From positions 33,460-97,459 of the IMG/VR virus record IMGVR_UViG_3300025127_007327: DNA of 64,000 nucleotides; one strand, 5' to 3'. The stretch is from a virus. The stretch's first letter is position 1. Each line of letters begins with the position of its first letter. The notes beneath the pieces were generated by a model that saw nothing but the letters and a program-made list of their open reading frames with translations, made no database searches and had not been told where the DNA came from. Below, piece after piece: positions 18,226 through 58,483 of the stretch. Made by a program: the position numbers and the translations under genes.

Positions 18226-20174
18226 TGATTAAAAATTATACCGCATCTGCAGATAATACAATTGTAAGTGCGTTTAAAGTAAATTTACAAACTCGTGGTA
18301 CTGGCTCTAATACTGGTCAAGCTGACGTTTTAGAGGTTTTTTCGATTTACGGTCGCCAAACCACTTCGTCACAAGAGCTTGCAAGAACACTGATACAATT
18401 TCCAATTGATCAAATTTCTAATGATCGAACCGCTGGTAGAATCCCTGCAAGTGGTAGCGTTAATTTTGTTTTAAATCTTTATAATGCAGAAACATCGAAA
18501 ACTGTTCCAAGAAATATGATCTTAGTTGTTAATCCTCTTTACAATAGTTGGCAGGAAGGAACTGGTCTTGATCTCGAAGGGTATAGAGACGAAACCAAGG
18601 GCGCTGAAGGCAGTAACTGGATGGTTAGAGCCAATACTCCCGGTGTTGCTGAAAAAACAAAATTCACTTTTACATCAGATACAAAAACAGAATACGGTGC
18701 TGGCTCTGGAGCTAACTATATAAAGCTCTATAACGGCACCACAAGATATAATATTTGGTTTAACGATGGCTCTGGCGACACCGCACCGGTTGCAGATGGG
18801 ACAGAAGTTCAAGTAAGTCTTGCTGCTGGTTCTGATGATACTGCTGCTGAGTTTGCAGAAAAATTTAAGGTTGCTGTAGATGGTCTCTCTGATTTCAGTG
18901 CGACTCGCGACGGTGCTGCTGTTACGGTGACAGCTACTGCTCTTGGTCCAACGTTAAATGCTGAAAAAGTGGGCACTATAAGCCCTATAACAATTGAGGT
19001 TACTCAAAATGGCACAAAAGAAACTCCATGGCACTCAGTCTCTGGCGGTGGCGATTTCTTATCTAGTTCCACCACGCCGGCAATATATGCAGACTATCAT
19101 TACACACAGCTTTTTGAGTCTGGTTTGGAAGATTTGGAAATTGATATTACCGCTTTGGTAGAAAGATGGATTGAAGGCGCCGGTGGTGGTGGTGATGCAG
19201 GTGGCATTGCCAACTATGGAATGGGAATTAAGTTAACTTCTAGTCAAGAAGCTTTCGGGGTTGCCCAATTGGTTCATGCTTCATCAGATAAACCAACACA
19301 AAACATACGTGATGGCGCCACAACATCTTTTTATACGAAAAGATTTTTCTCTCGCGGGACGCAATATTTCTTTAAGAGACCTTTAATTCAAGCAAAATGG
19401 GACTCAAGGCGTTTTGATCATAGGGGTCAATTCTTTATTAGTAGCTCACTGGCTAAATCTGAAAACATTAATGATTTATATTTTTACAACTATGTTAGAG
19501 GAAGATTAAGAAGTATTAATTCCAGTGATTCAGTAACAGTTTCTATTTACTCTAGCTCGGCTGGAGAGCCAGCCGGTGCAACTTTAAAAATTAAAAACAT
19601 TAATAATAATCTACAGTATGCAGTCTCTGCTAATGAAGTTTCCACTGGTGTCTATAAAGCTAGATTACAAGTTACTAGCTCGCTCACAAACTTACATGAT
19701 GTTTGGAGTTTAGGTAGCCAGCAAATATTTACCGGCTCAATTACATCGGTTCCTATGGGAAGCACAACACATCCAAGAGAGCCTGTTTACTTTACTAATA
19801 TTACTAATTTACAAAATTCTTATGCGCCTACACAAACAGCAAGATTTAATTTATATGTTAGAGAAAAAAACTGGAACCCAACAATTTTTACAAAAGCAAG
19901 AGCAAGTGCCCCTACTTTATCAATTGCAACAGCATCTTATCGTGTTATTAGAACGTTTGATGATTTAGAAGTAGTGGGACACGACACAGGCTCTGGCTTG
20001 CTTTCCACAGGTCTTTCTTTCGATGTATCAGGCAACTATTTTGACTTTGATATGAGATTATTGCAGCCCGGTTATGAATATGCGTTTAAGTTAGCTTTTT
20101 ATGATGATGAATTAAATTCATGGCAAGAACAAAAAAGAGAATTTAAATTCAGAGTAAGTGATTATGAGTATTAA
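18225..20174 (+). CDS. Virion protein with inserted beta-rich domain
   Basis: A 649-residue, beta-rich structural protein after gp6. The N-terminal region (residues about 1-140) reads like a jelly-roll/DNRLRE-type domain. Residues about 144-272 hold a separate Thr/Ala-rich domain (FTFTSD… DTAAEFAEKFKVAVDG… IEVTQNG), after which the first domain seems to resume (ETPWHSVSGGGDFLSSST). A related insert is seen in the two next large genes. The C-terminal part has a FN3-like pattern (PGYEYAFKLAFYDDELNSW). Role in the tail or fibre is inferred from position. Confidence 0.65.
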   Translation: MIKNYTASADNTIVSAFKVNLQTRGTGSNTGQADVLEVFSIYGRQTTSSQELARTLIQFPIDQISNDRTAGRIPASGSVNFVLNLYNAETSKTVPRNMILVVNPLYNSWQEGTGLDLEGYRDETKGAEGSNWMVRANTPGVAEKTKFTFTSDTKTEYGAGSGANYIKLYNGTTRYNIWFNDGSGDTAPVADGTEVQVSLAAGSDDTAAEFAEKFKVAVDGLSDFSATRDGAAVTVTATALGPTLNAEKVGTISPITIEVTQNGTKETPWHSVSGGGDFLSSSTTPAIYADYHYTQLFESGLEDLEIDITALVERWIEGAGGGGDAGGIANYGMGIKLTSSQEAFGVAQLVHASSDKPTQNIRDGATTSFYTKRFFSRGTQYFFKRPLIQAKWDSRRFDHRGQFFISSSLAKSENINDLYFYNYVRGRLRSINSSDSVTVSIYSSSAGEPAGATLKIKNINNNLQYAVSANEVSTGVYKARLQVTSSLTNLHDVWSLGSQQIFTGSITSVPMGSTTHPREPVYFTNITNLQNSYAPTQTARFNLYVREKNWNPTIFTKARASAPTLSIATASYRVIRTFDDLEVVGHDTGSGLLSTGLSFDVSGNYFDFDMRLLQPGYEYAFKLAFYDDELNSWQEQKREFKFRVSDYEY

Positions 20175-23100
20175 GAAACTTTTTGAATCTACCAATAAAG
20201 TAGATAAATTTATTTCAGACACAAATAGTAAAGATGCTTTCAATTCAGAAGCTGAATCTCAATTTAATATTGAGCAAAAGACAATTGATCAAGAGCGTTA
20301 TGTACCACAAGTAGACTATTCACAGCCTGAAAATTTTGCTAAATATGGCTCTGCTCGATTGTATTATAAATCGGCGCTTACAAGAATATCTGAATTTTAT
20401 CCTTATGATGGCTCAGAGGGCGAGACTAACGAGTTTTTAAACGGATGTTTAGACATTGAAAGATATATCTTAGATAATCTTTACCCAAGAACAAACGGGT
20501 ATATTATCTTAAACAATGCAGGTCACACAACTAAAGTTATGCAAAATGGCTTTGGTTTCCCTAATAGCAATGAACATATTGATTTAAAAGGTGGACCCGG
20601 AGTTGGAAGGGTAACATCTGGTAAGCTTAGAGATTTATTACCAAATCCTAAAAATAGTAGTTATGATTACTCAAACATCTATGATGAAAATATTTATCAA
20701 ACTGCAGGTTTGCCTTCTGATTATGGACAAGGCACAAGAACGTCAAATTTAAGAAGTGATTTTAGTGATGGTGTTACGTTAGAGTTTTGGCTTAAAACAG
20801 GTTCAATTGACCCACTTATAACACAAAGACAAGTAGTATTTGATTTATGGAACAACGAGCATTCTTCAAGTGATAATTACGGCCGATTAACTTTAGAAGT
20901 TACTGGTGCTAACCACGCCCAGCCTTCAACATTCCGCCTTAGTATTGCTTCTGGTTCAACAGTTATAAATTCTTTGCCTCTTGGTGATTTTGCTGTCAGC
21001 CAGCTTGGTGATTGGGCACATTATGCAGTCGTTTTATCTGCACAGAGCGCGTCTTTATATATTAATGGTCAAAGAAATAGTATCGCAACTTATGGTACCG
21101 CGACAGCCACAATTACCACTACTGGCGGTCCTCTTAATAATGAAACCTTTACTCTTACAGATGCTGCAGGACTTTCAGTAGGTTTTATATTTAAGCACAG
21201 TGTCGCAACTGTGGATGGCTCCAAAGATGGAGATAATGTGATTATTGGTGTTGATGGTGCTTTAGGTAGCGCTGCAGCAGTAGGAGAGAGAATTAGAGAC
21301 GCTATCAACGCGTCCAGTCTTGCAATGGTTGCAGTTGAAAAAACTGGTCCTCTACGAATAGAACTTACACAAAATGGTATTGGAGCTTCTGGTAATACAA
21401 CTGTTGACATGTCTGGTGTTACTACTGTTACCGCAACTGATTTTACCGGTGGAAAAACACTTGGCGCTCTGTACGAGCCCAACACGATCGGTCGAATTGG
21501 GGCGCTTGTAACAAACTCAATTCCAGCATCTTCTGGCGCAGAAAGAACTGGCTCAGCCGGCAGCGGTAGATTATCAGGCTCACTGGATGAGTTTAGATTC
21601 TGGAAAACTGCGCGAGATGGAAAACAAATTGGTGAAAACTGGTTTACTCAAGTTCGTGGTGGCTCTAATAGTGATATATCAAACACCACTTTGGGTGTTT
21701 ACTATAAGTTCAACGAAGGTATTACAGGTGTTAATACCACTGATAATGTGGTGCTTGACTACGCCGGCCGTGTTACAAATGGCACATGGACTGGCTATAA
21801 TGCAGGAGCAAGAAATACTGGCTCTGCAATTGTCTCTGCCTCAGCAGCAACAGCAGAATTTTTAGATCCAATTATTAGAACTAACCATCCAAGTTATGTA
21901 AGTCTAAATACTGAACTTCTTTCTACCGGTTCTTATCACGATGGTAAAAACACAAATAAATTATTAAATCTTCTGCCATCTTGGATACTTCAAGAAAATG
22001 ATGAAGATGAAAATTTTGATTTAAATTATATTACTCATATTATGGGTACGTATTTTGATAAGTTATATTTACAAATTTCTGATTTACCAAACTTAAGGCA
22101 CCAAACACACACTAGCGGGACATTTAAGCCGATATCTTTTGCAGAGCACCTTCCACAATCTCTTGGATTATACAGTCCCGAAATTTTTATTGATTCCACT
22201 GTGTTAGAAAGATTTATGAATCGTAGTGCAGATGGTGTATTTGAAAATGAATTAGAAGAAGCTAAGAATTTAATTTATCAAAATCTTTATAACAACTTAG
22301 CAGAAATTTATAAAGCAAAAGGCACCGAACAGTCTATAAGAAATGTTCTTAAGTGCTTTAACATAAACGAAAATATTCTATCATTAAAAGTTAACTCAAA
22401 TAATTCAGAATTTATTTTAAGAAATAATCTGGAACAAAAACTGTTGAGAAAAAATTGCGCTAATTTTAACACAACAGATAACTCTACTGCCGTAATTTAT
22501 TCAAGAAAGCAAGACTCGGCTATTTTTAAAGGCGCTTCTTCGGAAATTTTGGGTTCTATAACGGGTAGTACAAGACAATATGGCTATGGTTTTACTTATG
22601 AAGGTAATGTAATTTTCCCCAATTTTGAACCCAGTGTTTTATCAAGTGTAACGCTAAGAGATTCTGGAGAAGTATCTTTATTTGGAACAGTCACGCCGCT
22701 TGACACAACTGCTGGGATAAACGGAACGGATACAACAGCCATAAACGCTACACTCGATTTTGGAAACTTTAAATTTTTTGCAGTTAGAGACAATCTTAAA
22801 TCAACCAATGCTTACTTTAAGCTAGTTGTAGCAAATCCTACAGGCGCCGATATAGTTTTAACAAGCTCAGTTTATAATGATATTTATAATGATGAGCCTT
22901 GGAATTTATCTGTTCGTGTACGACCAAAAAATTATCCATTAAGTTCTTTTGTTGACTCGACGACACACGAAGGCTACGATGTTATATTTACCGGCTTCAA
23001 TCCAAAAACAACAGACTTGTTTAATTCGTTTATTTTGTCTGCTTCAGTAGACGAGACTCTCGGTAAAAAGTATATTGAATCTAGAAAAAGAGCCTATGTT

Positions 23101-26100
23101 GGCGCTAACAGAGAAAATGTAACAGGTCCAGTTATTAATAAAAGTGATGTTTTAGTTTCATCTGTTGCATACTGGCTTAAGTCATTAGATGACACAGACC
23201 TTCAGCAGCATTCAGTTGATTTAGAAAATATAGGTCTTTCAGGTTCTTTTAGAAGCTTATCTGCACTTGACACCACAGATAGTAGTGTTGAAGTTTTAGG
23301 TAGAGATACATTAGCATTCAATTGGAATTTTAGAAACGTTGATAGCTCTGATAGTTCTGGTAATTTTGTTGTTGAAGATTTTAGCTCTGGTTCTACTGAC
23401 GTAATAAACAAGTTTGGTTGGGCTGGAGGAATATCTGGTTATTACTACACTGGTTATGGATTTGGTTTTGCTAATTCATCAACATCAGTTGTAAATAGGC
23501 AATCTGTAAACACTTATAAATTTATTGATCCAGAGAGACCCATTTCTTCTGATATGGTTCAGATTTTTAGTGATTCTGATGATTTAACTCCGAATTTAAG
23601 AAAAGAAGAAATAATTCCCAACTATGTTTATGCTTTAGAAAAAAGTGTATATGGTGCTATTTCTGAAGAAATGCTGGATTTCTTTGCGGGTGTGGTTGAT
23701 TTTAGATCAGTAATTGGTGCACCAGTTAACTACTATAGACACAGATATAAAGAAATGGAAAAACTTAGACAAACGTTCTTCCAAAGAGTATCTGAAGTTT
23801 CAACGGTTGAAAAGTATACAGAATATTATAAATGGTTTGATGATGCACTAACAACAATTATATCACAATTGATACCTGCTTCCGGTGAATATATTAATGA
23901 TGTTCAGAATGTTATTGAAAGTCACGTACTTGAAAGAAATAAATATCAAAATCGTTTGAATATAATCGATTCTAATACATTACCAGAATTTGAATCTGCC
24001 ACTGATTCTGGTGATCCGGGCGGCGATCTTTACGTAGAAGCATCATCGCCGCTTGAATCCTCTCCAAGACCAACAAATAGGCATCCAGTGTTTTGGCAAA
24101 AAAGAGCCGACAGGAGATCTTTAGAAATAAGAACTGGCACCTCATCTGCACAAGTTGCTATTGATACACAGAGAAATAAATTTAGAGACGTTATCTATTC
24201 TAACCCAGTACCATCATCGTCATTTAAAAAGCCGTTACTTGTTACATCAGGTGGCACAAAGTATAGATTAAATAATTTTAATAAAAGAACTCGATTACAA
24301 AAATTTAAATTTGATATTAATGTTGACGATGGTTTTTCTGGTAGACAAAGAGACAAAGGTGTTTCTCCTAGAGTAGTCAAAGCAGGTACTAATTTTGAAG
24401 AGATTAAGAGCTTTGATTACTTTAGATCGGCAGTTACTCCCGGCGGACCAATTAATTCCGAGGGTGGCAAGCTTGTTCCTGTAAACGTTTTATTGGGACT
24501 TGTTCAAGATTCAGTTGATTTACCTTATGTGATTGATCCACACAGACCGGCCGATGCAATTGTAAAAAGAAAGAAAGTTTTTAAAGTACAGCATGGTCGT
24601 GATTACGAGGATGGAATTGGATTTAAGAACGTAAAATCTTCATTAGGTTTCCCATTTAATGTTATTAGTTCCAGCGTTGAGGTTAACTCTGGTTACAATT
24701 CAGAAGTTGTGTCTAGGGTAGGTAACTACTTGATGATCACAAACGTCCACAACGACGTTTATGGAGATAATTTTGAAGTACCCATGCAAGGTGCTTTTAC
24801 TCGCGACGTTGTTGGTGGATTGCAGTATAGACATATTAGAGTAAATACAGGTAGCGATCAGCAAGATACAAGACCAGAGGGCTTTAGAATTCACCTTGGT
24901 ACATGTCCTCCTTCAACTGAAGGAGCGATTGGTATTGTTGGTCCTGATTATCCGCCGCCAAATTACAATCTTCCTGCGGGCTCAAGCACGAGACCTTATC
25001 CGTATCCACATACACCAAAAGCACATCTTTATCGTGATTTAACAGCCAAGAGGCCAGTTAACATTAAAAATATTGTAAATAATGATGGCAATGTAACTGT
25101 GCCCGGTAACTTTAAAGAAAATTATCAGGTTATTCATTCTGTTGGCTCATTTAATAATCCTAGAGCTTTTATTGACAGCCAACCAACACTGCCATCACAA
25201 TTATCAGATGTGAAATTTACAACAAATGTTAGAACACTTTTAGGAATTAAAAGAACAAACGATGCTCATACTGCTTTAGTTGATGAATATAGCACTTCAT
25301 ATCTTACTGGAACAACAAATAAATCAATTATTGTTTCTAGATTTAGCGCTCCCGGTGGTATTGAGGTAATGTCAAAAGGATATTTAGATTTTAAATCATC
25401 TGAATTAAGTCCATATAATTCCATACCATATCGCAATTTAACTGTTGTTAGACCATCACAGGGACCGAGTGGTACAATTTCTACCGCAGCTACCAATGGT
25501 GATACAACTGATATTCAAGTTTTCGACATACATGGTAGAGATTATGGTTTAAGATCTCATCTTTCTAGACATGCGAATAGATTTGGTAGAGATTCGTTAT
25601 TTGTAACGAATCCCGGTGATACGTATACTGAGCTTCCTAACTTTCACAAGATCAATAGAAATAATTTACAAAGAATTCAAATAGCTGGTTATAACAACCA
25701 ATTTGTAGATTTCTATGGTACAAGCTCTGTTAAAAACAATTACTTTGTACAACATCAGATTCCAAGATCTGACAGACAATATATGTGGCTTTCTAATTCT
25801 GTTCAAGATGTATCAGATATTAAATATTCAGGTTTCCAAAAAATCTTTAATGAACAATTAATGCCCTATAGAACATCTTCAAGTGGTCTTGAGTTTTATT
25901 GGACATTTGTGCAAATTGCAGACTCTAGAATTAATGGACTTTCACAGTCTACAAATGGCTTAAATATTCTGATCAACGATCCGATTACAGAGTCAGAGAA
26001 TACACTTGGTTATACATCTGATACAGATGTTAGCAACTATATGAACGCAGGTTTCTTTGCTAATCCCGCCGCGAGGAAAGCTGCTAGCACAAATTACTTA

Positions 26101-29100
26101 AATCAGCTTTTAACAAGCCGAGGAGCCACTTATGGCTGGGGCTGGAATAAACTTAGATTTAATAATAATAAAATTTTACGCAATGAAAGAACAAAGAATG
26201 AACTTACAATTGCAACAGGTAGTGACCAACATTTAAAAACATTTAGACTTGCGCCAGTATCGTTAAAAGGCAGAGAATCATTTATTAATTTTGATGCTAC
26301 AATTGCTTCTAATGGTACCGCTACAACTGAAAACATAACTCTCAAGTTCAGTAACACAAATGAAAGAATATTTTTCAATGAATTACCACTTAACAATCAA
26401 GCAGAAATTAATTATTCAGAAATTTCGACTCCATACAAAGATGCCATTGCTGCAGCTAACTCTAATTTAGCCACATTAAATTGGTTCCTATACAAACAAA
26501 ATATTTTCCCATCAAATCGTAATGAATTTAATACTTTTGTTACAAAACGTGTTGGGTATGACAACAAATATTGGAGAGATTCAAGAGCAGCAAGAGCAGT
26601 GCTTGGAAATACACTTAGTAGTTCTTTATTGGGCGCACCAGTAAATAAGAGTTCTTGGGTGCTTGACGCCCCTCAAAACTTCTTGAATCGAACATCAATT
26701 GTTGGTCTTAGCGGTGGAGTACAAGTGTCTGGATTTCCCAGTAATTTCTTAGTTGTTCAGCCATTTCAACCACTGCCATCCGGCACCGCCGGTTATAACA
26801 TATTCGTACCGTCTGCTGGAGAATTGCAAAACACATATTACTCATACTTTACATTAAACTCAACTAATGGTAAATTGGGAACAGTAGCATTAGCGCCACT
26901 TTATAATAGAAAACATGTTTTAGCTGGTCCAAGAACAGTTGTTTCCCCAGTCGGTATAACAATTCCTGAAACTGGTTCTGTAATGGGCTTGTTCCCGCTA
27001 GTATCTGGTTCAGGTAATCATGCTGTTGAGCCTTTCGCCGGCGAAGCACTTTGGGAAGCTGCCGATCAAGCAGGCATAGTTGTAACTACTACCTCATCCT
27101 CAACAGAAAAAATACTGAAGAGAGGCACTACTTCACAGTTTATTGCTTCTGCTTCTAACCCATGGTATAACGATTACGATGATTTTAAATCAGATTTAAA
27201 ATTAATGGCTAAAGGTTATTCAATCATTCCAGAATATAGAATGAGTGAGCACGTAAAGGATTATTTTAATTTTGGAATTAACAATAAATCTAAAACAAAC
27301 TTTTTTGAAATAGTAGGAACTAATTCATCAAGTGCAAATAGTAATTTTTATAAAGATTATTCTAATTCAGATTTCTTAGAAAACTTTATGGGTATTAAAA
27401 AAGAAAGCTTGCTTAACGCAAAAGAAATTAAACTTACATGTAAAGCAGCAATTAAATATAACGCTTATGACGGATTTTATCCTGCACAAAGGACAGTGAA
27501 TTTAGCGGAACAATTTGTAGATTCTTTTAAAGACTCTATCCAAGGCGCTACCTTTGATGAGACAAGGGGATCTACAACATTTAACAATAAAGGATTTCAA
27601 CAAGAGAATGCCGTCGGCGGTCAATCATTTTATAATGTCCCAAATCTTTTATATGAACGCATGCCGGCTGCAGCAAAACAAGCCTTTGATCCAATTTTCT
27701 CACCGGGTATTTTATATAACTCTATTAAAGCAGGTTTAGCTGTAGACTATCCAGTTGTATCAAACCATAGAAAACGACTTAGAAAGCCTTTTGGTACGAT
27801 TCATACTGCATCTACTGATAACTTTGCAATGACAATTACCGGCTCATCAACATTAGAAAACTTTATCTCTGGTTCTGGACAATATATTGGTGGTCAATTT
27901 TGGGATAAAAGAATTCCATTTGAAGCTATTATTGAGCCAACAAAATATATTTTAAATACAAACTTTACTGATTTAGAATCACATCCATCAATGAGTGTAG
28001 ATTGTTTTATCAGTGAGGTGGTAAAAGGTAAATCATACAATGAATGTTATGAAAAAAATGCGGTAACCGCTTCATATAATGACAATGCTGATGGAATTTA
28101 TACTTTAATGGCTCGTAATTTCTTTGGTGCATGCGGAGAATTTTTCTTAGATGGTGGTGAAATTTCAAAACTTGAATCAAAAACCGTTTTAAATGATTTA
28201 CAGTTTACTATTGATGAATCATTTTCTGATTTACGTCCAATATATATGGCAAGAGTCAAATTAAGAAGATCACACAACGGAGTCAGATCCTATCAATATG
28301 AAGTGGATTCTTTTGGAAATTCAGGAAGTGGTAGCTACTACGGAACTGTTGGAGCCCAAAGGACAATTAACGGTACCGCATCTTCTGGACAATACGCACT
28401 ACCACAAGACCCCATGCACAACCCTGCTTTCCAAGAAACATTTACCATGTATAGTAGACCGTCTGCGTTTGGTCCACCTATGGCTGGTCGCCCAACTGGC
28501 TCAAACGCCGCCTTAATGCCGTTTGTTAGTGCCTCAAAGGATAGTTTCAGTGGTTATAATCCAGCATTCACTCCACCTTACTATGACGGAGAAGCATGGG
28601 CGGACTTAATTTTCAGACCTCATGTTATGAACAGAGAAACCAGTAAGGGTGGTAATTTAACATCAACCCCAGAAGTTTACGATCTTAACAGAATCCTAAA
28701 CGAAACTCAGGTTGTTTGTTGGCGTTTTGATCCGGGCGAAGCCAGTACTTCGGGGTCAAATGCCGCCACACACGCACCAATGCCTGTGTTGATTCCAATT
28801 GAGCAAACTCAATTTGCAATGTTTACTGGAAGCACTCCCAATAACGATAAAACTGTACCGTCAATTTATGATGGAAAAAGAATTAATGTCAATTCAATGC
28901 AACTAACATCAAGTGTGCAAATATTTGGTACAGAAAGAGTATTAGAACAAGAAACAGACAAATTTGGAAATGTTGTCTCTAATAAAAATAAACCTGTTGG
29001 CACTAAATGGATTATTCAGCCTAAATGGGAAACACCTATGCTTAACTTTAATGATGCCGGTGTACACCCAATTGCTGCAGTTAGTGGTACGCTTACATTA

Positions 29101-30081
29101 CCAACATATGGGTCAGCCTCTGTTCCTAGAGGAATGTGGCACCAGTTTGGTGTAATTCCTGAAGATCCGAACACGGGTATATTCTTAGAAATTGGAGACA
29201 TTCCTGAAGACTGGTTAAAAAATCACTATGAGGTGCTTACTGGTGATAGAGTAACGCCTTATAATGGTGGTGCTATCGCTCGCAATGGCAGTCGAGGTTC
29301 AGAAATTGAGAATACAAATAGATATAACTTATATAAAAATGTTCGTTCTCTCTCGACACTTTGCGGTTTTGATAAGACAAATTCAAGATCAAGACTCGGC
29401 GGAATCAAGCAAAGTATGGCTGTACATGAAGCAGTTGTTGCTATCCCGTATATTATCGAGGAAGTAGATGAATTTGAAAATACCACTTTACCACCCGATT
29501 CAAAACTTAGAACTGAAAGAAAGAAATTTATTTCGATACCCAAAAAACGATTTGCTGCTGCCCGCGATGAAGCTGCTGGTTCGGCCGCAGGTGATAGTTT
29601 AACGGTGGCAGGTGAATCCATTAGAAAACTACGCAATGCTTTAGAAAAATTTGTATTTCCACCAGAGCTTGACTTTCTTAATAATAAAGAGGTTGATCCT
29701 TTTGCAATGTATGTGTTTGAGTTTAAATATGAATTTGATAGAGATGATTTATCGTATATTTGGCAAAACATAGCACCAAGAGATTTTGAAAAAGTAGAAT
29801 TCCAGAATGTTTCTGTTGCTCATAATCTTGCTAATAATGAATTAATTAATGAAGATGTCCTTGCAAACGAGAATTTACGTTGGATGGTTTTCAAAGTTAA
29901 ACAACGAGCACAAACTGATTACTTTGATTTGATTGCTGATCAAGCTAATGAGTCTACTACAAAGATTGATGAAAAGACAACCAAGATTAAAGATTACAAG
30001 TTTGGATTCAATTGGCCGTATGATTACTTATCTTTCGTTGAACTAGTTAAATTAGACACAGAAATACTGTTTAAGAAATAA
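20164..30081 (+). CDS. Giant (3305 aa) LamG-containing tail protein
   Basis: The largest gene of the window, nearly 10 kb in one frame. ATG 20164 is chosen over a GTG two codons upstream; it overlaps the preceding gene by 11 bases. Residues about 200-305 and 430-490 together resemble a LamG/concanavalin-like jelly roll (DGVTLEFWLKTG, WAHYAVVLSAQSASLYINGQ, then GSLDEFRFWKTA). They are interrupted at about 312-430 by a Thr/Ala-rich domain with AVGERIRDAINAS and IELTQNG. The rest is a long, Ser/Asn/Tyr-rich structural chain with no domain I recognise. The LamG fold suggests glycan or protein binding at the virion surface. A baseplate wedge or fibre component is likely from the position after gp6. 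Confidence 0.75.
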   Translation: MSIKKLFESTNKVDKFISDTNSKDAFNSEAESQFNIEQKTIDQERYVPQVDYSQPENFAKYGSARLYYKSALTRISEFYPYDGSEGETNEFLNGCLDIERYILDNLYPRTNGYIILNNAGHTTKVMQNGFGFPNSNEHIDLKGGPGVGRVTSGKLRDLLPNPKNSSYDYSNIYDENIYQTAGLPSDYGQGTRTSNLRSDFSDGVTLEFWLKTGSIDPLITQRQVVFDLWNNEHSSSDNYGRLTLEVTGANHAQPSTFRLSIASGSTVINSLPLGDFAVSQLGDWAHYAVVLSAQSASLYINGQRNSIATYGTATATITTTGGPLNNETFTLTDAAGLSVGFIFKHSVATVDGSKDGDNVIIGVDGALGSAAAVGERIRDAINASSLAMVAVEKTGPLRIELTQNGIGASGNTTVDMSGVTTVTATDFTGGKTLGALYEPNTIGRIGALVTNSIPASSGAERTGSAGSGRLSGSLDEFRFWKTARDGKQIGENWFTQVRGGSNSDISNTTLGVYYKFNEGITGVNTTDNVVLDYAGRVTNGTWTGYNAGARNTGSAIVSASAATAEFLDPIIRTNHPSYVSLNTELLSTGSYHDGKNTNKLLNLLPSWILQENDEDENFDLNYITHIMGTYFDKLYLQISDLPNLRHQTHTSGTFKPISFAEHLPQSLGLYSPEIFIDSTVLERFMNRSADGVFENELEEAKNLIYQNLYNNLAEIYKAKGTEQSIRNVLKCFNINENILSLKVNSNNSEFILRNNLEQKLLRKNCANFNTTDNSTAVIYSRKQDSAIFKGASSEILGSITGSTRQYGYGFTYEGNVIFPNFEPSVLSSVTLRDSGEVSLFGTVTPLDTTAGINGTDTTAINATLDFGNFKFFAVRDNLKSTNAYFKLVVANPTGADIVLTSSVYNDIYNDEPWNLSVRVRPKNYPLSSFVDSTTHEGYDVIFTGFNPKTTDLFNSFILSASVDETLGKKYIESRKRAYVGANRENVTGPVINKSDVLVSSVAYWLKSLDDTDLQQHSVDLENIGLSGSFRSLSALDTTDSSVEVLGRDTLAFNWNFRNVDSSDSSGNFVVEDFSSGSTDVINKFGWAGGISGYYYTGYGFGFANSSTSVVNRQSVNTYKFIDPERPISSDMVQIFSDSDDLTPNLRKEEIIPNYVYALEKSVYGAISEEMLDFFAGVVDFRSVIGAPVNYYRHRYKEMEKLRQTFFQRVSEVSTVEKYTEYYKWFDDALTTIISQLIPASGEYINDVQNVIESHVLERNKYQNRLNIIDSNTLPEFESATDSGDPGGDLYVEASSPLESSPRPTNRHPVFWQKRADRRSLEIRTGTSSAQVAIDTQRNKFRDVIYSNPVPSSSFKKPLLVTSGGTKYRLNNFNKRTRLQKFKFDINVDDGFSGRQRDKGVSPRVVKAGTNFEEIKSFDYFRSAVTPGGPINSEGGKLVPVNVLLGLVQDSVDLPYVIDPHRPADAIVKRKKVFKVQHGRDYEDGIGFKNVKSSLGFPFNVISSSVEVNSGYNSEVVSRVGNYLMITNVHNDVYGDNFEVPMQGAFTRDVVGGLQYRHIRVNTGSDQQDTRPEGFRIHLGTCPPSTEGAIGIVGPDYPPPNYNLPAGSSTRPYPYPHTPKAHLYRDLTAKRPVNIKNIVNNDGNVTVPGNFKENYQVIHSVGSFNNPRAFIDSQPTLPSQLSDVKFTTNVRTLLGIKRTNDAHTALVDEYSTSYLTGTTNKSIIVSRFSAPGGIEVMSKGYLDFKSSELSPYNSIPYRNLTVVRPSQGPSGTISTAATNGDTTDIQVFDIHGRDYGLRSHLSRHANRFGRDSLFVTNPGDTYTELPNFHKINRNNLQRIQIAGYNNQFVDFYGTSSVKNNYFVQHQIPRSDRQYMWLSNSVQDVSDIKYSGFQKIFNEQLMPYRTSSSGLEFYWTFVQIADSRINGLSQSTNGLNILINDPITESENTLGYTSDTDVSNYMNAGFFANPAARKAASTNYLNQLLTSRGATYGWGWNKLRFNNNKILRNERTKNELTIATGSDQHLKTFRLAPVSLKGRESFINFDATIASNGTATTENITLKFSNTNERIFFNELPLNNQAEINYSEISTPYKDAIAAANSNLATLNWFLYKQNIFPSNRNEFNTFVTKRVGYDNKYWRDSRAARAVLGNTLSSSLLGAPVNKSSWVLDAPQNFLNRTSIVGLSGGVQVSGFPSNFLVVQPFQPLPSGTAGYNIFVPSAGELQNTYYSYFTLNSTNGKLGTVALAPLYNRKHVLAGPRTVVSPVGITIPETGSVMGLFPLVSGSGNHAVEPFAGEALWEAADQAGIVVTTTSSSTEKILKRGTTSQFIASASNPWYNDYDDFKSDLKLMAKGYSIIPEYRMSEHVKDYFNFGINNKSKTNFFEIVGTNSSSANSNFYKDYSNSDFLENFMGIKKESLLNAKEIKLTCKAAIKYNAYDGFYPAQRTVNLAEQFVDSFKDSIQGATFDETRGSTTFNNKGFQQENAVGGQSFYNVPNLLYERMPAAAKQAFDPIFSPGILYNSIKAGLAVDYPVVSNHRKRLRKPFGTIHTASTDNFAMTITGSSTLENFISGSGQYIGGQFWDKRIPFEAIIEPTKYILNTNFTDLESHPSMSVDCFISEVVKGKSYNECYEKNAVTASYNDNADGIYTLMARNFFGACGEFFLDGGEISKLESKTVLNDLQFTIDESFSDLRPIYMARVKLRRSHNGVRSYQYEVDSFGNSGSGSYYGTVGAQRTINGTASSGQYALPQDPMHNPAFQETFTMYSRPSAFGPPMAGRPTGSNAALMPFVSASKDSFSGYNPAFTPPYYDGEAWADLIFRPHVMNRETSKGGNLTSTPEVYDLNRILNETQVVCWRFDPGEASTSGSNAATHAPMPVLIPIEQTQFAMFTGSTPNNDKTVPSIYDGKRINVNSMQLTSSVQIFGTERVLEQETDKFGNVVSNKNKPVGTKWIIQPKWETPMLNFNDAGVHPIAAVSGTLTLPTYGSASVPRGMWHQFGVIPEDPNTGIFLEIGDIPEDWLKNHYEVLTGDRVTPYNGGAIARNGSRGSEIENTNRYNLYKNVRSLSTLCGFDKTNSRSRLGGIKQSMAVHEAVVAIPYIIEEVDEFENTTLPPDSKLRTERKKFISIPKKRFAAARDEAAGSAAGDSLTVAGESIRKLRNALEKFVFPPELDFLNNKEVDPFAMYVFEFKYEFDRDDLSYIWQNIAPRDFEKVEFQNVSVAHNLANNELINEDVLANENLRWMVFKVKQRAQTDYFDLIADQANESTTKIDEKTTKIKDYKFGFNWPYDYLSFVELVKLDTEILFKK

Positions 30082-51900: not shown

Positions 51901-52101
51901 AAGTCAGACTTGTTTATCCTTGATGAGCCGGGTACAGCACTGGACGAAGATAATATGTCGGGTTTTATTCAGATTTTGGAACTAATTAAAGTGTATTTCA
52001 AGAATGTTTTGTTAATCTCACACCTTGACTCACTTAAAGATTGTGTAGATATGCAAATCGTGATTGATAAAAAAGCAGGATATGCAAAGGTTAACCAATA
52101 A
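48943..52101 (+). CDS. Single-chain Mre11-Rad50 (SbcD-SbcC / gp47-gp46) fusion
   Basis: A 1052-residue recombination nuclease combining both subunits. Residues about 1-340 are a calcineurin-like phosphoesterase: VSDIHVRK (Asp10, His12), NTGDTFH, LGNHDMN, ALYHGS and LGDIHK. Residues about 365-1052 are a Rad50/SbcC ATPase: Walker A GKNFSGKS at 400-407, long coiled coils, a hook with Cys724 and Cys731, signature ASGAEKSLSAMA near 965, and Walker B LFILDEPGT with Asp994 and Glu995. T4 encodes these as separate genes 47 and 46, used in recombination-dependent replication. No stop or frameshift separates the halves. The start is GTG with AGGAG upstream, and a consensus promoter precedes it. Confidence 0.93.
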   Translation: MTIKIAHVSDIHVRKLKYHKEYRAVFEQLYEKLREEKPDIIVNTGDTFHTKLDMSPEAIKMMSELFVGLADIAPYHMILGNHDMNLKNSGRLDAISPIVDYLEHPNIHFHKYASVVEVAPGIDLHVLSIVDPENWQKELPQDRVNIALYHGSVVGSVTDSGWMMTHGDISLDELEKYDYAMLGDIHKTDQKVDNHGRAKYPGSLVQQNHGESNDKGYLIWDIEDKNTWTTRHVSLTNPKPFITIELTRKGRMPKNISIPFGARLRLVSNNNLPLDTMKRAVDIAKHRFKPETISFLNRASGERGSVESLTDGLQTENLRDIKVQEELIDEYLVDYEVPEKTLEKVYELNKKYNKIVEDNEDVSRNINWKLVDFEFDNLFNYGDGNNVSFEELSGIIGIFGKNFSGKSSIIDGILWTLFNTTSKNERKNLNVINQNKEFCRGKVKIQIGDKTYTVERSAKKYVKRLKGEETLEAKTELNFEVFDPVMGETTSLNGLTRTLTDANIRKQFGTLDDFSVSSLSSQHGALAFIDEGSTRRKEIIAKFLDLELFDRKFKLAKEDSVDLKGALKRLESKNYDEDLETATALLSEARTGLTERKELCDSLKSALSELRDVDSEIQNKINSIPAEIIDISTVRKQIAAKQNQIISLESRNNEINSDLKFKQQLYKKVNDFVNEFDLEHYTKLQNEINTKNSELSDKEKQIDKLSDDYENVINKEKLLNNIPCGTSYPTCKFIRDAHIAVANKTTIEAEQNSVLNSIEELKNLINDFNPDEVDEQLEKYRNIENSKHEISSSIADMNLELEKNKNLIHTITNKLDELQTKHDEYELNKEAIENLELLVAQLNKCHYKIEQTEKRINDCDTATLELVKSVGSYEQKIETIKEQKQEYQDLQTEFAAFDLFMQCMHPNGIAYDVIKKKIPVINEEIAKVLANIVDFEVFFEAAGNKFDINIKHPKYEERPIEMASGAEKSLSAMAIRLALLGVSSLPKSDLFILDEPGTALDEDNMSGFIQILELIKVYFKNVLLISHLDSLKDCVDMQIVIDKKAGYAKVNQ

Positions 52102-52352
52102 TGAGAATTACTAAACAACAACTTAAACAAATTATCATGGAAGAAATTGATAATAAAACGGAAATAACTGAAAACTCTATAGTTTCAGAAACTCTTAATT
52201 CTTTAGAATCAACTACTGATATGGTCTTATCTCTGGATGAAGAACAATTAAATGAAGTTTTGCCAGCTTTAATGCCAATAATTACCAAAGCTCTCGCAAA
52301 CCCTGCTGTGTTACAAGCTATATTGGGTGCCCTTACTGGTGGCGGTAAATAA
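52101..52352 (+). CDS. Tagged small protein 2 with amphipathic C-terminus
   Basis: An 83-residue protein sharing one base with the nuclease stop (TAATG). It starts MRITKQQLKQIIMEEI, the shared tag. The last 30 residues form a hydrophobic or amphipathic helix (VLPALMPIITKALANPA, then ILGALTGGGK) that could interact with membrane. No family recognised. It could be a small internal virion protein carried in the head, which is inferred from the tag. Confidence 0.6.
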   Translation: MRITKQQLKQIIMEEIDNKTEITENSIVSETLNSLESTTDMVLSLDEEQLNEVLPALMPIITKALANPAVLQAILGALTGGGK

Positions 52353-52359
52353 AGTGAAA

Positions 52360-52827
52360 ATGAAAAGGTCAGAACTTAAGCAGGTCATTAAAGAAGAACT
52401 CGAAACTGCAATAGACGAGGGCTTCCTTGATAGAATGATGGGTCGCGACAAAAAGGATAAACCAAAGAGCACATTAATCTATATGCCGGGTAAATCTATT
52501 CTTGAATTCTACAAGACCGGCTACGCCAACGTGATGGGCGCAGTTGTTAAATTGTTTGCACCAAAGGGCGCCGCTCTCGATCCCAATGATTTTTCTCAAG
52601 AAACAACAATTGAATTTGAATTTGACTTTCAGCACGGTGATGAATTCCTCGAACCGCGCTCGACATACGGAAATAGAATAAGGCGAAAGATTAAAAATGC
52701 TGCTTCTAATTTCTTAATAGACGCTCCAAACAAACCCGGCGGCTTTGAAAAAATTAAAGCCGAAGATCTGGCTAATAAAATCTATCAAGATGCACAAAAC
52801 CAAGCGCTGTACGGCACAAAGGAATAA
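52360..52827 (+). CDS. Tagged protein 3
   Basis: A 155-residue protein starting MKRSELKQVIKEELE, a shorter form of the shared tag. A GTG two codons upstream (52354) is an alternative start that would restore the usual tag length. After the tag the protein is basic, with YMPGKSILEFYKTGYANVMGA and a folded-looking C-terminal half. No family recognised. It lies between tagged protein 2 and the tubulin gene with gaps of a few bases. Confidence 0.6.
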   Translation: MKRSELKQVIKEELETAIDEGFLDRMMGRDKKDKPKSTLIYMPGKSILEFYKTGYANVMGAVVKLFAPKGAALDPNDFSQETTIEFEFDFQHGDEFLEPRSTYGNRIRRKIKNAASNFLIDAPNKPGGFEKIKAEDLANKIYQDAQNQALYGTKE

Positions 52828-52830
52828 ATA

Positions 52831-53967
52831 ATGAACGACAACGATAACAATGAGTTTGATTTTCTGCCGCCCGCAGAACCACCACCCTCTTTTAATCAGG
52901 AGAAAGATCACTATCACGAAGAAGTAGATGCTGAAGATTTCGGTATGGTCGAGGATTTCGGATTACAGATGGAATACTCTGATGAAGATCTACTCCCAGA
53001 GAACACGGCTCCTTCTTCAATAAACGTTGGCTTCGTTGGTGTTGGTGGCGGCGGTAACAAGATGGCTAACGCATTTCTTGAATTAGGTTTTAATAAAACA
53101 CTGCTTGTCAATACAACAGGCAAGGACATTCCAAAAAATGTCGAAGAGGATCACGTTGTCCTTATCCCCGATTCTGATGGAATTGGTAAAAACGTAGAAT
53201 ATGGAAAAGAGGTTTTAGCACAAAATGGAGCGATTGTCGAAGATGCTCTCCGCATCAAGTTTGGGAAAGTTGATTGGTTATTCGTCCTTGCTGGTGGCGG
53301 TGGCGGTACCGGTAGTAGCGTCACTGCTCTTCATCCTGTTTTTGAGCGCTACCTTCGCTCTGTTCAAGCTGCTGGACAAGTAGTATACATTACTTCATGG
53401 CCAACCGCACAAGAGAACCTAAACCCCACTATCGCTCGTAATGCGTTGGCGCTTGCTAACGATGTGTCAAGACACCCGCACATTATTCTTGACAACGAGC
53501 GTTCTACACGATTACTTCGCGGCCGGATTGGTATGCTTGGCATGTACCCTGTCGCAAACACACAATTTGCTAAGTCTTTCGCACAAATACTAAAGCTCTC
53601 CAGTGAGGATTCACCGATTCAATCTTTTGATAGTAAAGACTTAGAAACCTGTTTAGATCAGACCGGTCGAGCCTTTGTTGGCTCTACCATGATAAAAGAT
53701 CCAAATACAGGAAAGCTTGGATCGGTGATCCTTCACAACTGCATGAATCGTTCTGCATGTCCTCCACCCAAGGGTAAGGCTGCTGCTGGTTCGTTAGTGT
53801 TGGTTGTGTCAGAAGAGATGGTAGCAGACCCGAAGGTTAGCAAGAATATTGAGTCGGCAATCGCTTATGTCGGCGGTCGATGCGAGACACTTTTCTCTGG
53901 TGTTTACGTCAGAAAGAATGTGCCCGGATTGATTGCGATACTAAGTATGAATGGATTAGCGACATAG
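52831..53967 (+). CDS. Tubulin/FtsZ-superfamily GTPase (phage tubulin)
   Basis: A 378-residue cytoskeletal GTPase. After an acidic, probably disordered N-terminus of about 60 residues comes VGFVGVGGGGNKMA (the FtsZ T1-type loop). The tubulin signature GGGGGTGSS is at 155-163, and a T7 synergy loop equivalent is at IQSFDSKDLE with Asp267 and Asp270, the acidic pair needed to trigger GTP hydrolysis across subunits. NERST near residue 215 matches the position of the FtsZ nucleotide contact. Phage tubulins such as PhuZ build filaments that position replicating phage DNA in large phages; a similar role is inferred. Base composition is less AT-rich than its neighbours. A strong ribosome-binding site (AAGGAATAA) precedes it. 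Confidence 0.9.
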   Translation: MNDNDNNEFDFLPPAEPPPSFNQEKDHYHEEVDAEDFGMVEDFGLQMEYSDEDLLPENTAPSSINVGFVGVGGGGNKMANAFLELGFNKTLLVNTTGKDIPKNVEEDHVVLIPDSDGIGKNVEYGKEVLAQNGAIVEDALRIKFGKVDWLFVLAGGGGGTGSSVTALHPVFERYLRSVQAAGQVVYITSWPTAQENLNPTIARNALALANDVSRHPHIILDNERSTRLLRGRIGMLGMYPVANTQFAKSFAQILKLSSEDSPIQSFDSKDLETCLDQTGRAFVGSTMIKDPNTGKLGSVILHNCMNRSACPPPKGKAAAGSLVLVVSEEMVADPKVSKNIESAIAYVGGRCETLFSGVYVRKNVPGLIAILSMNGLAT

Positions 53968-54397: not shown

Positions 54398-54697
54398 ATG
54401 ATTAATTTATTAAACAAACTTTGGAATTTTTTAGTATCAAAAACATCACATGCTATTGCAGCAACACCAGTACTTGTAGAAGATACAACAGAAGAAATCG
54501 ATCTGCGCGCCTTATTTGTGCAAGTTTGCGTAAGCAAAGGTATGGGTGATAGACCTCTAAGAGAATCAAATGCAGTAGAATTATTTCTCGAATGGTATGA
54601 TGGGGAGCCTACTCACGATGCTATACTCGCATGTATGCCTGAATTTATGGCGCAAAATAATATAGTCAACGCTAAGTTTCAAAGGTTCTTTGGATGA
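54398..54697 (+). CDS. Small hypothetical protein
   Basis: A 99-residue protein; ATG 54398 is preferred over an upstream TTG at 54383 because it lies just after the preceding stop. The N-terminal 25 residues are hydrophobic with basic residues (NLLNKLWNFLVSKTSHA), and the rest is acidic and helical. It overlaps the next gene by 4 bases (ATGA). No function recognised. Confidence 0.55.
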   Translation: MINLLNKLWNFLVSKTSHAIAATPVLVEDTTEEIDLRALFVQVCVSKGMGDRPLRESNAVELFLEWYDGEPTHDAILACMPEFMAQNNIVNAKFQRFFG

Positions 54698-55542
54698 AAA
54701 TTAGTAAATCCAATCTTAAACAAATGATCAACGAAGAAATTGAACTTTTTCGGCATGAGCAAATAATGTTGCAAGAGCAGAGGCGAATTGACTTACTGCA
54801 TAATCAAATGCGACAAGAGGTGTTATCTGAAGATTGGAAAAAAGAATTACCGCACATAGGTCTTGATGTTCTTGGTCTTATTCCCGGCATCGGTGAAGCA
54901 GCAGATTTAACAAATGCAGCATTGTATGCCAAAAAAGGAGAACATTTAATGGCTGCGTTGTCAGTTATATCAATGATTCCTGCAGTTGGAGATGCTATTG
55001 GTAAAGGCGGCAAGATAGGAGTTTATCTTAGTAAGTTTGGGGCTAAGGGTGGAACAAGAGCCGGCACCTATTTGGGCAAGCTACTCTCTAAGCAAATGCC
55101 AAAAATTACTAAAACTCTTAACGCACTTAAATCAAATAAACTGATTGGTCAATATGTTGACGACATGGCTAAAGCTGTTACAAAATATGTTGACGATGTT
55201 GGTGCTGGAGTAGCAGATAAAATTTTGCCCCAAGTCCAGAAGGCAGTCGGCGTAGCGCCAACACAAACAGTTAGTAAAAACAAGTATGTTGCGCTGGCAC
55301 AGCAAGCTCAAGGCAAAACAATAGCACGTCAAAATAGACAGAAAATAGCGCAAGACTTATCTGGTGAAGAAGAATTAGATCAAGTCGCTGAAAGATCCCT
55401 GACTAAATCAGAAAAGAAAGAAAAAGAAAAAGTTGTTAAGGGCATGAAGAAATCTAAGAAAGATTTTAAACGTCGCTATGGTGACGATGCAGAATCAGTG
55501 ATGTACGCAACTGCAACTAAAATAGCAAAAGAAAAAGGGTGA
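54694..55542 (+). CDS. Tagged protein 4 with pre-toxin (PT-TG)-like hydrophobic domain
   Basis: A 282-residue protein beginning MKISKSNLKQMINEEIE, the shared tag. Residues about 48-120 hold a glycine-rich hydrophobic double repeat, GLIPGIGEAADLTNAALYAKKG followed by SVISMIPAVGDAIGKGGK. This recalls the pre-toxin TG region of bacterial polymorphic toxins. The middle is helical, and the C-terminus is basic with FKRRYGDDAESVMYATATKIA, a motif I associate with other marine phage proteins. No toxin catalytic domain was recognised. Tag plus membrane-like region suggests a head-carried, possibly ejected protein; this is a hypothesis. It is followed one base later by the putative holin gene. Confidence 0.65.
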   Translation: MKISKSNLKQMINEEIELFRHEQIMLQEQRRIDLLHNQMRQEVLSEDWKKELPHIGLDVLGLIPGIGEAADLTNAALYAKKGEHLMAALSVISMIPAVGDAIGKGGKIGVYLSKFGAKGGTRAGTYLGKLLSKQMPKITKTLNALKSNKLIGQYVDDMAKAVTKYVDDVGAGVADKILPQVQKAVGVAPTQTVSKNKYVALAQQAQGKTIARQNRQKIAQDLSGEEELDQVAERSLTKSEKKEKEKVVKGMKKSKKDFKRRYGDDAESVMYATATKIAKEKG

Positions 55543-57471: not shown

Positions 57472-58020
57472 ATGGCTACAGTTTACGAAATCGTTCAGGG
57501 CTTGTCACAAGCAGCAGCTAACGCTTATGATGGCGCCCTTGATGAAAATGGGGAACCACTCTTGGTTGGATTGCAAAGAGAGGAGGGAGATCCCATTTTA
57601 GACAAAAGAGTTATGGATGGATTTAATGTCCGCTTTAGTGGAAACATGATGACTCTTTCCTACATGTCAGAAGTGCAATTAAAGGAAGTTTATGCTAGCG
57701 GTTTTGAAACAAGAGTTGAAGAACAGATTGCTGAAATAGCTGCTTTCCTTAAAAAAGAATATCGAAAGATTCGTGGTGAATCAGTTGCTCTTACTAAAGA
57801 AGGAGAGTTGGATGTGCGTGTCGAAAACTCCACTAGAGTGCGCTCATGGGTAACAGCCGTTTGCAATTATAGAGTTGGTGGTCTTAATGAAGATATGGCA
57901 GTAGCTGCTGAAGCCGACACTAAACCTGAAGATAGCTTTAGAAAGTTTATTGATCAAGGTGGCTGGACTGGCGATGGCGGAAAGCGTCCACAAAACGATA
58001 CCAGAAAAAAGGAATCGTAA
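57472..58020 (+). CDS. Hypothetical protein upstream of terminase
   Basis: A 182-residue protein with GGATAA as ribosome-binding site. It is mixed alpha/beta with an acidic C-terminal tail ending in a basic patch (GKRPQNDTRKK). The location before terminase and portal suggests a head-completion, neck or packaging role. No family recognised. It is followed one base later by a tagged protein gene. Confidence 0.58.
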   Translation: MATVYEIVQGLSQAAANAYDGALDENGEPLLVGLQREEGDPILDKRVMDGFNVRFSGNMMTLSYMSEVQLKEVYASGFETRVEEQIAEIAAFLKKEYRKIRGESVALTKEGELDVRVENSTRVRSWVTAVCNYRVGGLNEDMAVAAEADTKPEDSFRKFIDQGGWTGDGGKRPQNDTRKKES

Positions 58021-58021
58021 A

Positions 58022-58483
58022 ATGAAAATCACCGAAGATCAATTAAGACGCATTATAGTTGAAGAATATATTAAAGAAGAAAATTTGGATGAGTATAGCG
58101 AGGAAGCTGAAAAGCTCATTAAGAAAATGGTTGGCGACAAAGAGTACGCACGTCGAAGAGCTTTAGAAAATCCAAAAACCTCTGAGCCCTCTGACACTGC
58201 ACCAATGGAAAAGCCACATTCTGATTCCGATGATGATGTCGTTATGTCTGGTAATATTGAAGATGCAATTTATGATATGGTCAAAGGTGCTGATACAGGC
58301 GAAGTAGCAGAAATCTTTAATGCTGTGTTTTCGCGTTTTGAACCTGAAGCGGCCGAAGAAATTATGACTTCCTTGTACGGTGGCAAAGAAATGGATGCAA
58401 GACAGCAGCAAGGTAGACAAGTTGGGTTCAAGCTTGAAGAACTCAAATTTTTAATTAAAAAAGTTTTAGCTGAGAGTGTATGA
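58022..58483 (+). CDS. Tagged protein 5
   Basis: A 153-residue acidic protein starting MKITEDQLRRIIVEEY, the shared tag. The start is chosen at the ATG one base after the previous stop. The middle is proline/serine/aspartate-rich, and a helical domain follows (AIYDMVKGADTGEVAEIFNA). It ends with a second tag-like helix (KLEELKFLIKKVLAE). It overlaps the terminase start by 4 bases. Function unknown. Confidence 0.62.
   Translation: MKITEDQLRRIIVEEYIKEENLDEYSEEAEKLIKKMVGDKEYARRRALENPKTSEPSDTAPMEKPHSDSDDDVVMSGNIEDAIYDMVKGADTGEVAEIFNAVFSRFEPEAAEEIMTSLYGGKEMDARQQQGRQVGFKLEELKFLIKKVLAESV

Follow-up and report, generated by a model that had tools for sequence, protein, structure and literature searches.

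A deep and strongly conserved branch of phage tubulins in a lineage with T4-type virion genes

What a tubulin-like GTPase might do for a phage with T4-type virion genes is the question raised by an open reading frame at positions 52831..53967 (+ strand, 378 aa) of the 64,000-nucleotide stretch of viral DNA analysed here (hereafter the window), which derives from a 97-kb viral fragment carrying one tubulin gene. Phage tubulins are usually assigned either to jumbo phages that form a nucleus, in which PhuZ is dispensable, or to plasmid-like partition (TubZ). An earlier note had named the product a phage tubulin/FtsZ-like GTPase, which is borne out by the open reading frame and by matches to PF00091, FtsZ, CetZ and TubZ. 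Far from being an oddity of a single genome, the gene belongs to the core of a widespread lineage, whose most conserved protein it encodes.

The open reading frame has an ATG start and a ribosome-binding-like stretch (AAGGAA) upstream, and 77 distinct homologues of its product were collected. The protein matched PF00091 (Pfam; E 1.2e-7, single-sequence search), TIGR00065 ftsZ (NCBIfam; E 2.7e-11) and an FtsZ in a PDB sequence search (E 3e-9); the TIGR00065 match reached 43 bits against a curated equivalog cut-off of 295, so the protein is not FtsZ itself. The family profile matched CetZ 3zid best (E 3e-21, both domains, residues about 70-371), and also RepX/TubZ (2e-16) and FtsZ (6e-16); Foldseek with the first AlphaFold2 model found CetZ (best), TubZ and FtsZ, with E values from 1e-10 to 1e-8. 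The GTP-binding domain, T1 and the GGGTG(S/T)-type T4 of the Tubulin/FtsZ superfamily are present, as are the H7 core helix and the C-terminal activation domain by CetZ profile alignment and secondary structure (low pLDDT there). Membership in the superfamily is confirmed, at the level of sequence, by homology far above chance.

The acidic, Pro-rich N-terminal extension (residues 1-62; 52831..53016, +) begins with a varying tip of about 7-15 residues, followed by the conserved stretch FDFLPPAEPPPSF...EDFGMVEDFGLQMEYSDEDLLPENTAPS; residues 1-60 are predicted to be disordered (AlphaFold2 pLDDT about 30), and mean identity among homologues is 0.92. The description of this extension as unusual, acidic and about 60 residues long holds, and it is conserved like the GTPase domain. 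That domain, taken through the T7 loop (residues 63-275; 53017..53655, +) on the basis of sequence, invariant columns, AlphaFold2 and Foldseek, comprises T1 (GVGGGGN, G70-N76), T4 (AGGGGGTGSS, A154-S163), T6 (DNE, D221-N222-E223), H7 (about 235-257) and T7 (FDSKDL, with acids D267 and D270); pLDDT is mostly 80-95 over residues 61-220. The T1 loop, the GGGTGSS signature and the acid pair lie where the earlier note had placed them; the T1 and T4 glycines and both acids show no variation among 77 distinct full-length homologues, and with its catalytic motifs intact the predicted enzyme shows no sign of degradation. The C-terminal activation domain (residues 276-378; 53656..53967, +), assigned by CetZ profile alignment and secondary structure, contains an invariant NRSACPPPKGK and follows the secondary-structure pattern of the FtsZ C-domain, but at low pLDDT; the low AlphaFold2 confidence for this domain and the extension is attributed to the natural relatives all being very close to one another. 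The chain stops at the last C-domain strand (...PGLIAILSMNGLAT), without H11 and without a C-terminal tail. Four cysteines of H8 and the C-domain (C274, C304, C310 and C351; window 53650-53883), including those of NCMNRSAC, are invariant or nearly so and might bind a metal or form a contact.

In a maximum-likelihood tree of 29 sequences (IQ-TREE, LG+C20), the deep order of which is unreliable because of long branches, the window family formed a single branch (100/100) outside FtsZ, PhuZ and the plasmid/phage-G TubZ. FtsZ formed one branch (100/100), as did PhuZ (7 sequences, 100/100, window family excluded); phage G and contig sequence L086 clustered with plasmid TubZ (89/76). The single partial CetZ row joined FtsZ (88/83), apart from the window family, a weak placement given one row on a long branch. 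The case envisaged against the earlier reading, a protein nested among host FtsZ sequences and broken in its catalytic loop, is not what was found: the family has its own deep branch at about 25% identity, with invariant motifs, and a host FtsZ pickup was rejected. FtsZ membership was rejected on the bit score and on the position outside the FtsZ clade, and PhuZ membership on the separate tree branch and the missing match to PF22334; in the narrow sense, the protein is not akin to PhuZ.

PhuZ (phiKZ gp39, 201phi2-1 gp59; PF00091 plus PF22334 TubZ_C_2) is, like the window protein, a phage tubulin-superfamily GTPase with an acidic extension, and both are presumed filament formers; PF22334 matches phiKZ gp39 but not the window protein. 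The anatomy is reversed: in phiKZ PhuZ, a helix and an acidic tail close the C-terminus, and the N-terminus carries no significant extension (PMC3678025), whereas the window tubulin carries its conserved acidic extension at the N-terminus and lacks a C-terminal tail. The longitudinal contact of PhuZ is made by its acidic extension, and TubZ also carries a C-terminal helix and tail (PMC3678025). Bacterial FtsZ shares the GTPase motifs, the T7 acids and the C-domain topology; its C-terminal linker and conserved C-terminal peptide, however, are absent from the window protein, in which the extension sits at the opposite end. Archaeal CetZ (3zid), the best profile and Foldseek match, is yet about 22% identical and does not group with the family in the tree. 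TubZ (plasmids, phage c-st) and Bacillus phage G gp138 belong to the same superfamily; gp138 is the only homologue detectable in cultured phage records (25% over half length, E 3e-4), and gp138 and L086, unlike the window tubulin, have no N-terminal extension and have longer C-termini. The nearest viral folds are the BFVD entries A0A6J5RW92 and A0A8S5UFG9, auto-named phage 'FtsZ' (E 1.5e-12 and 1.4e-10, respectively); at 18% identity they are other uncharacterised phage FtsZ-like proteins, outside the window family. A literature search returned no report of the family; prior mention in PhuZ-diversity work (BMC Genomics 26:1050) is possible.

The T4-type gene set is real. The window encodes a T4-type portal gp20 (E 5e-75), a T4-type terminase, an SbcCD/gp46-47-like protein and a baseplate wedge; a gp23-type capsid (E about 1e-60) occurs in five relatives, and the set also includes a gp32-type SSB. 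The replicative polymerase of the relatives, though, is of the bacterial DNA polymerase III alpha type (L106:6778-10248, -; G003:126778-130248), present in 5/5 long relatives and among their most conserved long proteins. By terminase, Flavobacterium phage immuto (48%) and Microcystis phage Mel-JY01 (44%) rank among the closest annotated phages; in neither was this polymerase detected, and neither gave a match in a PF00091 search that was positive in phiKZ. The tail-region giant ORFs (window 8728-16011, 2427 aa; 20158-30081, 3307 aa) diverge strongly between relatives. The relatives extend to 195 kb, and genomes G005 and G003 look complete because of direct terminal repeats (exact, 127 bp, in G005; nearly exact, about 98 bp, in G003). 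A tmRNA gene is carried by phage G005 (L330:5525-5864, -; tag peptide ANNNNYFEQRLAA), and none was found in the scanned G003 stretches.

A search for ChmA-like shell genes, as proposed in the earlier note, found none: chimallin (ChmA, PF25677) had no match near the cut-off in five long relatives (187-196 kb), and the phiKZ positive control matched. A score of 12 bits in G012, against a cut-off of 27, was taken as noise; the search covers that Pfam family, and a diverged shell protein outside it could escape. The host is perhaps a member of the Bacteroidota, which is weakly hinted at by a tubulin-bearing contig (88% identity) binned in a Flavobacteriaceae MAG (L095, PAAD01000063.1) and by the terminase affinity. 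A GDP-mannose 4,6-dehydratase (L102:3155-4126, -; G003; 26214-27188 in a relative, G000) is among the most conserved proteins (81-87%) and suggests surface-sugar or DNA-modification chemistry.

One scan found at least 175 viral contig stretches encoding a tubulin relative, and the most distant family members found were about 81-84% identical to a family neighbour. In the viral contigs, no sequence fell in the gap from about 81% down to about 25% identity (the level of phage G gp138), and queries with phage G or A5 gave no intermediates either; since the peptide-pattern search is biased towards near relatives, their absence is not proven. A survey that began from the terminase, with tubulin not used to pick loci, found tubulin, complete or truncated where the contig stops, in 23/23 loci that had 5.1 kb or more of upstream sequence; shorter upstream stretches say nothing about its presence, as the tubulin-terminase distance ranges from 3.2 to 6.4 kb. 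Tubulin is a core gene of a widespread T4-type phage lineage, the habitat of which is apparently marine, as read from IMG dataset numbers rather than computed.

Tubulin was also the most conserved protein in 6/6 pairwise comparisons of four long genomes (three of them 191-196 kb), at 88-95% identity. Between G000 and G003 it was 94.4% identical, the next long protein being the terminase (86.1%); for the two pairs for which a genome median was computed, identity was 95.0% against a median of 59% (G003/G005) and 88.5% against 54% (G003/G006). Its pN was the lowest of all compared genes in 5/5 further or re-analysed genome pairs with 43 to 103 genes each (about 0.04-0.09 vs medians of 0.27-0.31). 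A recent horizontal sweep as the source of this conservation was rejected: pS against G006 is level with that of other genes (0.75-0.86; median about 0.81), and pN is lowest. Because synonymous sites are saturated like those of other genes in the widest comparisons, the conservation reflects strong purifying selection; in closer pairs, pS of tubulin is somewhat low (0.53-0.55 vs 0.72-0.75), and some exchange is therefore possible. The constraint is equal along the chain (pN/pS 0.078 for the N-terminal extension, 0.094 for the GTPase domain, 0.098 for the C-domain), and such slow evolution of the whole chain, extension included, is the expectation for a homopolymer with constrained contacts.

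The tubulin is very probably a GTP-dependent filament former. From the sequence we infer GTP hydrolysis, polymerisation, a role for the extension and a cargo, as follows. The protein would self-assemble and hydrolyse GTP, giving a cytomotive filament inside infected cells, in which subunits would stack head to tail so that Asp267/Asp270 of one completes the GTP site of its neighbour. In PhuZ of phage RAY, the D198A substitution yields over-stable filaments (PMC10299810). The cargo would be replicating DNA and/or capsids awaiting packaging, a PhuZ-like action in a T4-type phage without a detectable nucleus; PhuZ filaments centre DNA and carry capsids (PMC7950403, PMC13282480). The acidic N-terminal extension may be a strap onto the neighbouring subunit, replacing the C-terminal acidic 'knuckle' of PhuZ, or a cargo tether; none of the flanking genes is conserved in a way that would clearly mark it as an adaptor. 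An essential cytomotive role in the lytic cycle is favoured because of the lytic T4-type genes, the lack of a conserved partner gene and the extreme constraint. PhuZ occurs with chimallin, is dispensable and is found in only 66% of chimalliviruses (PMC10299810), whereas for the window tubulin chimallin was not found and the gene is the most conserved; its extreme conservation may therefore mean a different, more essential job. Taken as a whole, the best explanation, and on balance a probable one, is a GTP-driven cytomotive filament by which viral cargo is transported or placed in the absence of a detectable phage nucleus.

Interference with host FtsZ, also proposed in the earlier note, becomes less likely because tubulin is a core gene and the most conserved protein of the lineage. 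A phage tubulin that co-assembles with or caps host FtsZ would block division and yield a larger cell with a bigger burst, and the overall similarity of the protein does lie nearer the FtsZ/CetZ side than PhuZ. The deep branch and low identity, however, do not describe a derived host FtsZ; a target that varies with the host predicts varied contact surfaces, whereas this is the most constrained protein of the genome; and the complete catalytic set has been retained, needless for a cap. A division decoy is thus unlikely.

The gene has the gp46/47-like recombination gene to one side and the terminase/portal/head operon to the other, a location that would suit a morphogenesis or recombination factor, that is, a local GTPase switch or ring acting in packaging, the replisome or head assembly without long filaments. 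The distance to the terminase varies, however, with unrelated genes between, which makes the co-location loose, and the tubulin fold and complete T7 loop point to head-to-tail polymers, so that a local role is judged improbable.

Tubulin is a conserved island amid hypervariable small genes, and no conserved neighbour that might serve as a TubR partner adjoins it among relatives. The latter speaks against a TubZ-like filament segregating a low-copy extrachromosomal phage genome in a carrier or pseudolysogenic state, for which TubZ partition in phage c-st and Bacillus plasmids (PMC7950403) is a precedent and the profile match to RepX/TubZ an argument. A plasmid homologue was not found by tblastn, the tree separates the family from the TubZ/phage-G branch, and the gene set is of the lytic T4 type; partition accordingly ranks as distinctly improbable.

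The tagged proteins that the earlier note saw on the flanks are real, whereas its 'lysis-like' genes have no family match. Two recurrent N-terminal tags, MK(I/L)(S/T)KxxLKxIIxEE and MKxLFENWRK, occur at the hypervariable site and on both flanks of tubulin, the former borne by otherwise unrelated small proteins (tagged proteins at window 52101-52352, 52327-52827, 54694-55542 and 57950-58483; in L261, L266, L274 and others, directly after the tubulin stop). Just downstream of tubulin, at least three unrelated gene starts occur across relatives, two with these tags, and the site looks like one of cassette exchange. It recalls the T-even phage loci for internal proteins, in which leaders that target proteins to the capsid are conserved, and the tags are possibly such capsid-targeting leaders. 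The 3' end of the tubulin gene, which borders this site (53870..53967, +), has reduced synonymous variation: in the last 30 codons, 4-fold diversity is 0.21-0.34 and 2-fold diversity 0.11-0.18, against about 0.5 and 0.35 elsewhere. This end is perhaps a recombination anchor or an embedded element; 14 terminase-anchored contigs start within the tubulin gene, and a promoter/terminator scan gave chance level. T4-type proteases cleave after (L/I)xE, and LLPEN stands at the end of the extension, so that the latter might be a propeptide cut by a T4-type prohead protease at the LxE-like LLPE57, the mature protein being packaged and injected like the internal proteins that the tagged neighbours resemble; at least one homologue (L062) has D at position 57, however, and the neighbours' tag is absent from tubulin, which leaves this reading most improbable.

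The family is a real, strongly conserved phage tubulin branch, unreported in the searchable literature. It is a third, separate branch, in which tubulin is the slowest-evolving protein of phages of about 191-196 kb whose virion genes are T4-type and in which chimallin is not detectable. With its acidic extension shifted to the opposite end of the chain, the family offers a clean test of the job of this extension in phage tubulins. That a widespread marine T4-type lineage depends on its own tubulin cytoskeleton, as a new deep branch with an N-terminal strap, nucleus-free replication or packaging and a tubulin constrained beyond polymerase, terminase and portal, is a tentative proposal, plausible though short of probable. 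The argument for a phage cytoskeleton independent of a nucleus is good. If filaments form, such cytoskeletons would not presuppose a nucleus, and a widespread lineage of phages would rely on a cytoskeleton of this kind.
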